This document shows positions 38,162 to 43,083 of a DNA stretch of 64,000 nucleotides, in pieces. The notes beneath the pieces were generated by a model that saw nothing but the letters and a program-made list of their open reading frames with translations, made no database searches and had not been told where the DNA came from. Made by a program: the position numbers and the translations under genes. The number at the start of each line of letters is the position of its first letter. The first letter of the stretch is position 1. This stretch comes from Tenericutes bacterium HGW-Tenericutes-2. GTDB taxonomy: Bacteria; Bacillota_I; Bacilli_A; Acholeplasmatales; Acholeplasmataceae. The stretch lies in assembly GCA_002839095.1 (NCBI GenBank), contig PGXL01000003.1, positions 1 to 64,000 on the forward strand, read 5' to 3'.

Positions 38162-39055
38162 ATGTCAAAAAAATACCAAAGTATGATTGTATTGGGCATT
38201 TTATATCTATTTTCTATTCTTATTGGAGTACTTGTTTTTCTAAATCTAGAGTCATTATCTTTGATTTTAAGATTACTTATAGCTGATTTAGCAGCTACTT
38301 TAGTCGTTTGGATTTTTTCTCTTGTTATTAAAAATGCAAGCGCATATGATCCCTATTGGAGTGTTATTCCACCAGTGATCTTAATTCTTTTATTCTTTCA
38401 TCTTGGGCTTTCCTCATCCTTTCCTATTTATTTAATGATTGCTGGTTTGTCTGTATGGAGCTTAAGATTAACCTATAATTGGGCAAAAAATTGGAATGGA
38501 TTTAAGGAACAAGACTGGAGATACACAATTATGTATCAGAGGTCACCTAAGCTATTTTTCTTAACCAATTTATTTGGAATTCAAATATTTCCAACATTGA
38601 TTGTCTTTATTCAATTAATTGGTGCAGTCTATTTCATGAGTGCTCCATCCTTAACCATTTTTACTTGGATAGGCTTTACCACCATGGTATCAGCTGCAAT
38701 CATTCAATTTGTCGCGGATGGTCAAATGAGACAGTTTAAGGAAAGAACTAAAGGCCAAAAGCTCTGTATCGAGGAAGGTCTATGGAAATATTCGAGACAT
38801 CCAAATTATTTTGGAGAAGTCATGGTTTGGTGGGGCTTATATGTTATATACTTTGGAAGCGTAATGAAGCTAGATTTACTGATTCTAGCACCTATAGCAA
38901 TGACATCACTCTTTTTGTTCATCAGCATTCCATGGATGGAAAAAAAGATTATTCAAACAAGACCTGAATATATGGATTATCAAAAAAGAGTATCAAAGCT
39001 CATTCCATTCTTTAGAAAAGAAGAAAATAATCATAAGATTCATGAAAATGCTTGA
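38162..39055 (+). CDS. DUF1295 family membrane protein
   Basis: A 297-residue protein with about seven membrane segments and the DUF1295/steroid-5-alpha-reductase-like signature LWKYSRHPNYFGEVMVWWG. This region is shared with isoprenylcysteine methyltransferases and NAD(P)H-dependent sterol reductases. The substrate is unknown. GGGG precedes the ATG and a TATAAT lies at 38124-38129. Its stop codon overlaps the -35 box of the next promoter. Confidence 0.85.
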   Translation: MSKKYQSMIVLGILYLFSILIGVLVFLNLESLSLILRLLIADLAATLVVWIFSLVIKNASAYDPYWSVIPPVILILLFFHLGLSSSFPIYLMIAGLSVWSLRLTYNWAKNWNGFKEQDWRYTIMYQRSPKLFFLTNLFGIQIFPTLIVFIQLIGAVYFMSAPSLTIFTWIGFTTMVSAAIIQFVADGQMRQFKERTKGQKLCIEEGLWKYSRHPNYFGEVMVWWGLYVIYFGSVMKLDLLILAPIAMTSLFLFISIPWMEKKIIQTRPEYMDYQKRVSKLIPFFRKEENNHKIHENA

Positions 39056-39079
39056 CAATCGCTAGAATCTTCGTATAAT
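39052..39079 (+). promoter_or_regulatory. Consensus promoter of the fluoride-riboswitch unit
   Basis: Perfect TTGACA (39052-39057) and TATAAT (39074-39079) with a 16-base spacer. It overlaps the end of the DUF1295 gene. Confidence 0.88.
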
Positions 39080-39084
39080 CAAAC

Positions 39085-39176
39085 GTGGGAATGAACGTCT
39101 CCCGAAGTCATAATGACTTAAACCGCAAACAAGCTGATGACTTCTACAACATTTTTTGTTGTAGGAGTCTTTTTCA
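39085..39176 (+). promoter_or_regulatory. crcB-motif (fluoride) riboswitch with overlapping terminator
   Basis: The RNA starts with a GGGA/TCCC stem (39087-39090 with 39100-39103) closing an ATGAACGTC loop. An optional AAGTCAT/ATGACTT hairpin follows (39105-39119). Then come AAACCGC (39120-39126) and GCTGATGACTTCTAC (39133-39147), the highly conserved 3' part of the crcB motif. Loop bases GAA and GTC can pair with GACTTC (39139-39144), forming the known pseudoknot. The same 3' segment begins a terminator: GACTTCTACAACA with TGTTGTAGGAGTC (39157-39169), then T5. Fluoride binding would hold the pseudoknot and prevent termination, an on-switch. Confidence 0.85.
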
Positions 39177-39187
39177 TAGGAGGAATT

Positions 39188-40369
39188 ATGCTACTTTCAG
39201 CCGCTTTAATAATTTTAACAAGTCTTATCCTATCTCAAATCCTAATTAAATTAAAGCTTCCAGGAATCATTGGAATGCTTTTATCAGGTATTATATTAGG
39301 TCCATTTGTCTTAAATTTGATTGATCCAAGTATTCTAAATCTTTCTACCGATCTAAGACAGGTTGCTTTAATTGTCATACTTGTTCGTGCAGGTTTATCA
39401 CTGGATTTAGAGGATTTAAAAAAGGTTGGTAGACCAGCGATACTCATGGCTTTTATTCCTGCAACGATAGAACTATTGGCAATAACCTTTTTAGCACCCA
39501 TATTCTTTGGAATTTCATATTTAGAGGCTTTAATTTTAGGTGCTATCGTAGCTGCAGTATCACCAGCAGTTGTCGTTCCTAGAATGATTAAGCTAATGGA
39601 ATCCAAATATGGTACTGAAAAGAAAGTGCCTCAATTGATACTAGCAGGAGCTTCGATTGATGATGTTTTTGTTATTGTTTTATTTGCATCTTTTATTCAA
39701 GCCTATCAGACCAGCACGTTTAGTATATTGAATATATTACTCGTCCCTGTTTCTATTCTTCTAGGTATTTTATTGGGAATTCTTTCTGGAATAATTCTCA
39801 TTTGGTTATTTAAGATATTTCATATAAGAGATACTCTAAAGGTATTAATACTATTTTCAGCTGCTTTTCTCTTTCTCGTAATCGAACATGAATTATCATC
39901 ATTCATTCCAATTTCTGGGTTAGTTGCAGTAATAACACTAGGTGGAACCATTTTAAAGAAATATGAAATTCTTGCAAAAAGACTTGTAGGTAAATTTGAA
40001 AAGATATGGGTTATTGCTGAAATCATGCTATTTGTTTTAGTAGGAGCAGCAGTAGATATCACAGTTTTAGTCAATGTTGGACTCCTTTCCATCCTACTGA
40101 TTATGATTGCCTTAGTATTTAGAATGATTGGTGTTTGGATTGCACTTATTAAAACAAACTTCAACAAAAAAGAAAAACTGTTTATTGCGATATCCTATAC
40201 ACCAAAGGCAACTGTACAAGCAGCGATAGGAGCTATTCCACTCTCACTCGGTATTGCAAGCGGAAATTTAATCCTAACGATTGCAGTACTCGCTATCATC
40301 ATCACAGCTCCAATTGGAGCGATCCTTATGGATAAAACCTATAAAAAACTATTAGTTCTAGAGAAATAA
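39188..40369 (+). CDS. CPA-type cation/proton antiporter under fluoride-riboswitch control
   Basis: A 393-residue protein with about 12 membrane segments of the cation:proton antiporter superfamily (NhaP/KefB-like). Visible motifs include LPGIIGMLLSGIILGP in segment 2 and AGASIDDVFVIVLF with the paired acidic residues of the ion site. The ATG at 39188 is chosen for AGGAGG 5 bases upstream; a longer frame from 39137 runs through the riboswitch terminator and is not real. CPA antiporters are an established class of gene found behind fluoride riboswitches, so this protein probably relieves fluoride stress by exporting F- or by countering its ionic effects. Confidence 0.85.
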   Translation: MLLSAALIILTSLILSQILIKLKLPGIIGMLLSGIILGPFVLNLIDPSILNLSTDLRQVALIVILVRAGLSLDLEDLKKVGRPAILMAFIPATIELLAITFLAPIFFGISYLEALILGAIVAAVSPAVVVPRMIKLMESKYGTEKKVPQLILAGASIDDVFVIVLFASFIQAYQTSTFSILNILLVPVSILLGILLGILSGIILIWLFKIFHIRDTLKVLILFSAAFLFLVIEHELSSFIPISGLVAVITLGGTILKKYEILAKRLVGKFEKIWVIAEIMLFVLVGAAVDITVLVNVGLLSILLIMIALVFRMIGVWIALIKTNFNKKEKLFIAISYTPKATVQAAIGAIPLSLGIASGNLILTIAVLAIIITAPIGAILMDKTYKKLLVLEK

Positions 40370-40384
40370 CTTCAAATTATGAAC

Positions 40385-40421
40385 AAAAAAGAGTACAATA
40401 TGTATATGGTATTCTTTTTTT
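40385..40421 (+). terminator. Terminator after the antiporter gene
   Basis: AAAAGAGTAC pairs with GTATTCTTTT, using G-T wobbles, across a 12-base loop. T7 follows. Confidence 0.6.
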
Positions 40422-40506: not shown

Positions 40507-40923
40507 ATGAAGAGAAATAAGTTTATTATCATCGGTTCTGGTCGTTTAGGTGCGAATATTGCCACAAAAATGTCAGAGCTTGGGGAAGATGTGATCATTA
40601 TTGATGCGACTGAAGATTCGTTTAGAAAACTACAAGAATCATTTTCAGGATATCAAGTCGTTGGTGATGCAACAGATTTATCTGTTTTAGAAAATTCATA
40701 TATCAAGCATGCGAAAGCAGTAGTAATTACTACGGATAGTGATAATGTGAATATTTTTCTTTCCCATATTTGCTATTATGTTTATAATGTTCCAAGAATT
40801 TTCGTACGTTTAGCAGATACCGACAAAGGTCGTTTATTAGAAGGCACCTATATTAAAGCTATATATCCTTTCACATTGTCATTAAATGAATTTATGAATT
40901 TAAGCGAAGTGGAGGAGGAATAA
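40507..40923 (+). CDS. TrkA-N (RCK) domain protein, short potassium-channel regulator
   Basis: A 138-residue single RCK N-lobe. The nucleotide-binding loop IIGSGRLGANIA is intact, and Asp of IIDAT ends strand 2, fitting NAD(H) or ATP binding. The TrkA-C domain is absent. AAGGAG precedes the ATG. It is followed after one base by a second, full TrkA and then by TrkH, so the three form one potassium-uptake operon. Confidence 0.85.
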   Translation: MKRNKFIIIGSGRLGANIATKMSELGEDVIIIDATEDSFRKLQESFSGYQVVGDATDLSVLENSYIKHAKAVVITTDSDNVNIFLSHICYYVYNVPRIFVRLADTDKGRLLEGTYIKAIYPFTLSLNEFMNLSEVEEE

Positions 40924-40924
40924 G

Positions 40925-41587
40925 ATGAAAATAGTTATTACTGGCGGAAAGCATGAAGCTGACTTTATTGTAAAAATGCTCCAAGAGGAACATCATCATT
41001 TAATCGTAATCAATCAAGATAGAGATTTTGCTGAATACATTAGCTCTCATAACGATATTCCTGTATTTCCAGGAGACCCCACCAAGGCATACACTTTATC
41101 TGATGCTGAAGCACATAATGCTGATGTACTACTTGCTTTATCAGATAGCGATACGGATAACTACATTACTTGTATCACAGGTAAAAAATTATTCAATATT
41201 AAAAAAACCGTTTCTAAAGTTAGAAACCCAAAAAATGTAGAATTATTTAAAAAATTAGGTGTTGATTCTGTTATTTCTTCAACATATTTGCTAGCTCAAA
41301 CGATAATAAATGAGTCTTCAATCGAAAACATGATTAAAACACTTTCTATAGAAGATGAAAAAATTGTGATGATTGAATTAGGTGTTGAAGCTGATTTTGC
41401 ATTAGTGAATAAGCGCATTATGGATATTCACTTTCCTAAAAACATTAACATTAGCTGTATCTTTAGAGATCCACACGTTATTATTCCTAACGGGAATACA
41501 GTGATTAAAGCTTTAGATAAGCTAATTATTATCTCTACTCCAAGCGAGCAAGATGAAATTATTGAATACATTCGAAAGAAAAAATAA
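40925..41587 (+). CDS. trkA: TrkA-family potassium uptake regulator with altered nucleotide loop
   Basis: A 220-residue RCK protein with N- and C-lobes (TrkA-N about 1-130, TrkA-C about 135-220, ending IIISTPSEQDEIIEYI). The glycine loop is degenerate: ITGGKHEADFI in place of GxGxxG, so it may not bind a nucleotide itself and may depend on the 138-residue neighbour. GGAGG lies at the end of the upstream gene. TrkH starts 2 bases after its stop. Confidence 0.83.
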   Translation: MKIVITGGKHEADFIVKMLQEEHHHLIVINQDRDFAEYISSHNDIPVFPGDPTKAYTLSDAEAHNADVLLALSDSDTDNYITCITGKKLFNIKKTVSKVRNPKNVELFKKLGVDSVISSTYLLAQTIINESSIENMIKTLSIEDEKIVMIELGVEADFALVNKRIMDIHFPKNINISCIFRDPHVIIPNGNTVIKALDKLIIISTPSEQDEIIEYIRKKK

Positions 41588-41589
41588 AT

Positions 41590-43083
41590 ATGAACAAAAA
41601 AATAGTTTCTGGATATCCATTGATTATCAATTATCTTGGCATATTTGCAATACTCATCGGATTTATTAATTTGATACCATTGATATTGATTCCATTTCGA
41701 ATGGAAGATATTAGTGATGCGTACCTTTTTCTATACCCTGGGATTATTAGTATCTTGGTTGGTTTTATTGTTGTACTTTTATTTAAGGGAAGAGAAAAAG
41801 GGAAACTCGAAAGAAACCAGGATGCTATTTTGGTTGTTAACATCTGGATTATGGCAATCTTGATTTCTGCAATGCCGTTTGTGTTAACTGGTGATTATAC
41901 ATTTACCCAAGCTGTATTTGAAGCTACTAGTGGATATTCAACAACTGGCTTAACTGTAGTAGATGTTTCAGTCGCCCCCAAGGCATTATTACTCTTTAGA
42001 AGCCTTTTGCAATTCTTTGGAGGTATTGGATTAGTTTTAGTCTTAACATCTGCTATATCTGATAAGTTTGGAATGAGATTATATAGTGCAGAAGGTCATA
42101 GTGATAAGCTGATGCCTAATTTAATTCGATCTGGACGAATGATTCTTTCTATTTATGTAGGTTATATCACAATAGGTATTATTCTATATATGATATTTGG
42201 TATGCCATTTTTTGATGCGCTTAATCATGCAATTTGCGCTGTAGCAACAGGAGGCTTTTCAACTCAATCACAAAGCATTGGTTATTATAATAGTGTCCCT
42301 ATTGAAATGATCACGATGGTACTAATGCTTCTTGGAGGAACTAACTTCTTTGTTCACTTAATGCTGTTAAGAGGAAAAATGAAGAATGTATTTGGTCATG
42401 TTGAAATTAAACTATTAGGCATCTTAATGTTAATTGGATTACCACTATTTACTATAAACCTATTATCTGTATACAATGGGAATATTCTTCACTCATTACG
42501 TATTGGGACATTCCAATTCATTTCTGCAGTATCAGGAACTGGTTACCAAACTGTTCCATCATTTGTAGGTGTTATGACACCAAGTCTTTTCTTCTTTGGC
42601 CTAATCATCTTAATGGTGCTTGGAGCTGGAATGGGTTCAACAGCTGGTGGTATGAAACAATACCGTGTTGCACTTGCTTTTAAGAGTATGTATTGGAATA
42701 TTAAGGAACAACTATCCCATAAGAAAACAATAAGAACTCATTTTATCAATAAAATAGGATCTAAAACAGTTGTTGATCGGGAGGATATTATATTTAACCA
42801 TTCCTTCTTAATGATTTATTTAGTTGTTTTGGTAACAGGAACCTTGATTATATCAAGTTTTGGTCACTCATTAGAAAACTCACTATTTGAATTTGCATCT
42901 GCATTGGGAACAGTTGGATTATCAGTAGGTATTACTGGATATAATGCACATCCAATGATCTTATGGACCTCAACAATCGGAATGTTTTTGGGTAGACTTG
43001 AATTCTATGTCATCTTTATAGCAATTGCTAAAATATATATTGATATAACTAAGAAGAAGGATAAAGAGAAAAAGATTAGCTGA
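41590..43083 (+). CDS. trkH: TrkH-family potassium transporter
   Basis: A 497-residue membrane protein with four channel-like repeats. Selectivity-loop glycines are seen in ATSGYSTTGLTV, AVATGGFSTQSQSIG, VSGTGYQTV and SALGTVGLSVGITG. An LGAGMGSTAGGMKQYR motif lies in the middle, as in TrkH/KtrB. It should take up K+ gated by the two RCK proteins encoded just upstream. Its stop overlaps a terminator hairpin. Confidence 0.94.
   Translation: MNKKIVSGYPLIINYLGIFAILIGFINLIPLILIPFRMEDISDAYLFLYPGIISILVGFIVVLLFKGREKGKLERNQDAILVVNIWIMAILISAMPFVLTGDYTFTQAVFEATSGYSTTGLTVVDVSVAPKALLLFRSLLQFFGGIGLVLVLTSAISDKFGMRLYSAEGHSDKLMPNLIRSGRMILSIYVGYITIGIILYMIFGMPFFDALNHAICAVATGGFSTQSQSIGYYNSVPIEMITMVLMLLGGTNFFVHLMLLRGKMKNVFGHVEIKLLGILMLIGLPLFTINLLSVYNGNILHSLRIGTFQFISAVSGTGYQTVPSFVGVMTPSLFFFGLIILMVLGAGMGSTAGGMKQYRVALAFKSMYWNIKEQLSHKKTIRTHFINKIGSKTVVDREDIIFNHSFLMIYLVVLVTGTLIISSFGHSLENSLFEFASALGTVGLSVGITGYNAHPMILWTSTIGMFLGRLEFYVIFIAIAKIYIDITKKKDKEKKIS

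Follow-up and report, generated by a model that had tools for sequence, protein, structure and literature searches.

The window, that is, the whole stretch of 64,000 nucleotides that was analysed, lies on contig 38 of a 2.3-Mb genome of a wall-less bacterium related to Acholeplasmataceae such as Peloplasma aerotolerans. From position 39052 onward, a promoter, an RNA aptamer, an intrinsic terminator, and an antiporter gene follow one another on the forward strand, with the following elements.

39052..39079, + strand: sigma-70-type promoter, TTGACA-16-TATAAT, matching 12 of 12 consensus positions
39087..39103, + strand: P1 hairpin, GGGA/TCCC (arms 39087-39090 and 39100-39103), with a pseudoknot loop
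39093-39099, + strand: 5' pseudoknot strand, GAA(C)GTC, with C39096 bulged
39104..39119, + strand: P2 hairpin in the interval between P1 and the core (stem 39105-39110 with 39114-39119), pairing conserved
39120-39126, + strand: aptamer core AAACCGC, aligned to RF01734
within the core at 39120..39147, + strand: minimal P3 (GC/GC) with loop 39127-39132, from the RF01734 alignment
39133-39147, + strand: core segment GCTGATGACTTCTAC, from the RF01734 alignment
39139..39144, + strand: 3' pseudoknot strand GACTTC, which is also the start of the terminator 5' arm
39139..39174, + strand: intrinsic terminator serving as expression platform, with a 13-pair stem (39139-39169) and a U-run (39170-39174), -19.1 kcal/mol
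39178..39183, + strand: ribosome-binding site AGGAGG
39188..40369, + strand: NHA2/SLC9B-like cation:proton antiporter of 393 aa (ATG at 39188, stop at 40369), assigned by PF00999 and similarity to NHA2
40385..40421, + strand: A/U-rich hairpin with a U-run, a probable terminator 3' of the antiporter gene, read from the sequence

The first-pass annotation had described a consensus promoter, crcB-motif cores with a GGGA/TCCC stem and a pseudoknot-capable loop, and a 3' pseudoknot strand that doubles as the first part of the terminator stem. The promoter and the shared strand are present as it had placed them, and the aptamer elements, likewise in place, align to RF01734. An in-frame ATG at 39137 is an unlikely start for the antiporter, as it sits inside the aptamer. 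The DUF1295 gene that precedes the promoter ends within it, its stop codon overlapping the -35 box (39052-39055). A hairpin resembling the one 3' of the antiporter gene is also found in locus L040 and is not evident in L067.

The aptamer occupies positions 39087 to 39147, and the covariance match to the Rfam Fluoride family (RF01734) spans 39078 to 39153 with a score of 33.1 bits (E=5.6e-8 on 151 bases, 2.0e-7 genome-wide), 0.9 bit below the gathering score of 34 bits. The covariance search that the annotation had put forward as a check thus returned a low genome-wide E value together with a score just under the family threshold, a shortfall that we attribute to a 14-base P2 insertion and a shortened P3, both unexpected by the RF01734 model. 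The next-best match in the genome reaches only 15.6 bits, and the genome-wide covariance search gave no credible second fluoride riboswitch. P1 and the AUG, AACCGC, GCUGAUGAC, and CUAC core positions agree with the RF01734 consensus in the alignment, and the pseudoknot pairing between the P1 loop and the 3' strand is present as six pairs plus one bulged nucleotide. Like the RF01734 riboswitches of Bacillus cereus crcB and Thermotoga petrophila, the RNA combines P1 and its pseudoknot loop with AACCGC and CUGAUGAC...CUAC cores and with an overlapping intrinsic terminator, an arrangement for which an ON switch is expected. It differs from the Rfam consensus in that a P2 hairpin separates P1 from the core and P3 has two pairs, and from the B. 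cereus RNA in its pseudoknot, where a pyrimidine is bulged and position 1 is C-G rather than the U.G wobble of B. cereus.

The aptamer is present in all 20 genomes searched from this Acholeplasmataceae genus, with an architecture common to all, and scores above the RF01734 cut-off in 16 of them; each copy precedes the same antiporter where the contig extends far enough. Counterparts of the promoter are found in 19 of the 20 members and a terminator overlapping the 3' strand in all 20, and the loci retrieved share the gene order fabG-fabF-fabZ-birA-(bioY)-DUF1295-[riboswitch]-antiporter-trkA-trkA-trkH-lytTR. Chance is excluded as an explanation for this conservation. A relic RNA, or a variant with a ligand other than fluoride, is very improbable: the score slightly below the cut-off, the bulged pseudoknot, and the tiny P3 would suit such a reading, but the AUG, AACCGC, GCUGAUGAC, and CUAC core positions fit the consensus, 19 to 20 of the 20 relatives retain the promoter, the P2 pairing, and the terminator, and canonical high-scoring aptamers in Clostridia precede the same gene. 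Taken with the fixed linkage, the synteny, and the covariation, the covariance score supports a putative fluoride riboswitch whose terminator overlaps the aptamer and which precedes a CPA antiporter. Two further matches were set aside. In L051 (3609-3905), two identical aptamers flank a run of N and most likely represent an assembly artefact rather than a tandem riboswitch, and a weak second RF01734 match in L028, a relative, overlaps a long open reading frame and was treated as chance.

In published fluoride riboswitch models the stems are numbered P1 and P3, a scheme that can accommodate an optional P2. The annotation had noticed the extra hairpin between P1 and the core; the hairpin is real, and it is not peculiar to the locus, since it covaries in 74 aptamers. 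Its four outer pairs are standard in 78 of 80 cases among the 20 genus members, compared with a mean of 61.6 and a maximum of 71 over 2000 shuffles of the 3' arms, and in the 74 distinct aptamers, nearly all of them antiporter-linked, 257 of 282 pairs are standard (permuted mean 159, maximum 184). When the register is shifted by one base, the pairing drops to chance level. Because the pairing exceeds all permutations, P2 is taken as a genuine structural element of the antiporter-linked subgroup; it occurs in almost every antiporter-linked copy examined from Bacillota, is missing from the 64-position Rfam consensus, and is not present in the Nitrospirota copy L065. The P2 5' arm GAAGUCAU (39104-39111) is also complementary, at all 8 bases, to the P3/pseudoknot strand AUGACUUC (39137-39144), and the minimum free energy fold of the isolated aptamer, computed without pseudoknots, is this GAAGUCAU/AUGACUUC decoy and not the aptamer fold. 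Five to six of the decoy bases are kept in close relatives only and three to five in most genus members; such poor conservation of the complementarity led us to reject the decoy as a conserved third state, although the pairing may lower switching in this species.

The bulged C in the pseudoknot (C39096), which the annotation had also noted, is indeed present; it is neither a local peculiarity nor noise, since GAA-Y-GUC with a bulged C or U pairs with GACUUC in 19 of the 20 genus members, the remaining one having a C.C mismatch. Position 1 of the pseudoknot is C-G in the genus and U.G without a bulge in most other antiporter-linked aptamers, and on this comparison the bulged pseudoknot is a clade-specific trait. 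In the B. cereus RNA, a 2024 study found switching to depend on the position-1 wobble, with a C-G pair in its place giving readthrough nearly always (PMC11077080). Among 73 classified antiporter-linked aptamers, an internal defect (a bulge, a mismatch, or a wobble at position 4) accompanies a Watson-Crick position 1 in 34 of 36 cases and any other position 1 in 15 of 37 (Fisher p=7e-7, kinship ignored); with the genus removed, the counts are 14 of 16 and 15 of 37 (p=0.002, kinship again ignored). From this association we infer that the bulge stands in for the wobble as the weak point of the pseudoknot, and the data provide a natural test of the published position-1 requirement (PMC11077080).

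The downstream gene had been annotated as a CPA antiporter, an assignment that holds and can be narrowed to the NHA2/SLC9B-like type. The 393-aa product matches PF00999 (Na_H_Exchanger) with 163 bits against a cut-off of 26.2 and has no NCBIfam equivalog match above cut-off. Its nearest solved relative by sequence is NHA2/SLC9B2 (E=2.1e-41, about 30% identity), which is also the best Foldseek match (E=2.9e-16, TM 0.79) of the AlphaFold model (AF2, pLDDT 84.5). Residues E95, D158/D159, R312, and K340 of the antiporter correspond to E214, D277/D278, R431, and K459 of NHA2, respectively; E95, R312, and K340 are invariant in 34 homologues and D158/D159 are kept in at least 90%. The protein thus shares with NHA2 (PDB 7b4l, 7p1i) the DD motif, the residues of the E214-R431 bridge, the PKATVQAAIG motif, and the CPA fold. 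The E214-R431 salt bridge has been described as specific to NHA2, which is electroneutral (PMC8850199), and exchange of one cation for one H+, likewise electroneutral, is therefore predicted by analogy for the antiporter. NHA2 has 14 transmembrane helices (TM), of which TM -1 is an extra N-terminal helix holding E107 (PMC8850199). In the alignment, residue 23 of the antiporter falls on NHA2 residue 141, which places the start of the protein near NHA2 residue 119, past TM -1; because this helix is missing, we term it NHA2-like and not NHA2. Unlike NHA2, an animal protein, it is bacterial and lies under a putative fluoride riboswitch.

A fluoride riboswitch ahead of an Na+/H+ antiporter is already known and has been listed since 2012 (PMC11139923); as that review relays Baker et al. 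2012, Na+/H+ antiporters rank directly behind exporters among the gene classes associated with the riboswitch. The gene association at our locus is the same as that in Baker et al. 2012, as relayed there, but here the antiporter is of the NHA2/SLC9B-like subfamily and is fixed in a genus with no recognisable Fluc or CLC. The annotation's description of a known but little-studied class agrees with the literature: the association is published, our literature search found no functional paper on a CPA antiporter with a fluoride riboswitch, and in the literature found the riboswitch-linked antiporter is uncharacterised. What is new, on the strength of sequence comparison, is the NHA2-type identity, the absence of recognisable known exporters, and the apparent exchange of wobble for bulge.

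Across the order, 55 of 57 aptamers sit 30 to 89 bases 5' of this antiporter. The other two (L121:301-375 and L122:3000-3073) have no antiporter downstream, and the one in L122 precedes an ORF resembling an HD-domain protein. The antiporter loci retrieved from Clostridia and Nitrospirota carry an aptamer above cut-off wherever the upstream DNA is long enough. The association has exceptions: of the orthologues from other orders of the phylum, 10 of 19 have a riboswitch above cut-off, and eight close orthologues within the order (L113-L120) show no detectable fluoride riboswitch in searches up to E=0.5 and are therefore constitutive or controlled by other means.

CLC-F and Fluc exporters are common clients of fluoride riboswitches, as the antiporter is, but they are unrelated to it as protein families, and neither is found above cut-off in the genus. 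In a survey with Fluc (PF02537) and CLC (PF00654) profiles, which an exporter of a new family would escape and which covered several incomplete drafts, each profile was above cut-off in 0 of 20 genus genomes; Fluc was above cut-off in 0 of 113 genomes of the order, and CLC of any type in 19 of 113. Sixteen unrelated genomes with a riboswitch-linked antiporter have Fluc in none and CLC of any type in eight. In a sample of 392 genomes from the phylum, the antiporter occurs in 80, Fluc above cut-off in 11, and both in 1; with about 2 expected, this overlap is suggestive and not significant, and antagonism between antiporter and Fluc was not retained. Since no known fluoride exporter is recognisable in the genus, the antiporter is probably its main fluoride-tolerance device, and it appears to be the sole recognisable fluoride defence there. 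As it is also the sole riboswitch client, the usual confounder is gone and the role of the antiporter in tolerance is cleanly testable.

Taken together, we consider it quite probable that the RNA is a fluoride-responsive transcriptional ON riboswitch driving an NHA2-like antiporter, which would be the main tolerance device and would likely act by cation/proton exchange. Weighing against this reading are the score 0.9 bit short of the cut-off, the decoy that displaces the aptamer fold in the pseudoknot-free energy calculation, and the antiporter orthologues, inside and outside the order, for which no riboswitch above cut-off was found. RNA polymerase would start at about 39086, so that the transcript begins at or just before P1. 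When fluoride is lacking, the 3' arm of the nascent terminator (about 39157-39169) would capture GACUUCUAC from the pseudoknot, the terminator would form, and the antiporter gene would stay untranscribed. Mg2+-bound fluoride would instead hold the pseudoknot (39093-39099 with 39139-39144), block the lower half of the terminator, and allow the gene to be read; ON switching through mutual exclusion of aptamer and terminator is a published mechanism (PMC13273304).

The benefit of such an antiporter is not self-evident: Na+ leaving in exchange for incoming H+ would add to the acid load. HF that enters the cell dissociates there, so that the build-up of F- scales with the pH gradient. By moving H+ in and cations out, the antiporter could lessen the pH gradient that traps F-, upon which HF would leave; in the alternative direction, Na+-driven expulsion of acid could restore the pH after HF entry. 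It is possible, though we think it doubtful, that fluoride induces several adjustments, of which the antiporter is one, serving pH homeostasis only, and that export proper falls to an unrecognised protein encoded elsewhere. Riboswitch-linked Na+/H+ antiporters are placed under pH homeostasis in a review (PMC11139923), but the genome's next RF01734 match, at 15.6 bits, leaves no second fluoride riboswitch, and the genus lacks Fluc and CLC above cut-off.

Improbable, in our estimate, is that the NHA2-like protein itself exports fluoride (for instance by coupling F- or HF to the movement of H+ or a cation). Its position as the only riboswitch-controlled gene in a genus with no Fluc or CLC above cut-off would fit direct export, as would the lack of Fluc in the 16 unrelated genomes and the single co-occurrence in the phylum sample; however, conservation of the cation-binding DD site and the NHA2 salt bridge is what a cation exchanger would show, the scarcity of genomes with both Fluc and antiporter is not significant, and half of those 16 genomes have some CLC. 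Equally improbable is the combined proposal that this subfamily alone is the resistance transporter moving F- in these wall-less bacteria and many other Bacillota, with a bulged pyrimidine replacing the U.G wobble in the clade. If true, the antiporters would form a third fluoride exporter family beside Fluc and CLC-F, and the bulge would be a built-in weak point letting the terminator open the pseudoknot.

Immediately 3' of the antiporter in the genus (40507-43080 in the window), two separate TrkA proteins and TrkH make up a K+ uptake set beside the antiporter. The TrkA proteins are of 138 aa (N domain only) and 220 aa (N and C domains), and the 138-aa protein is 82 to 97% identical across the genus.
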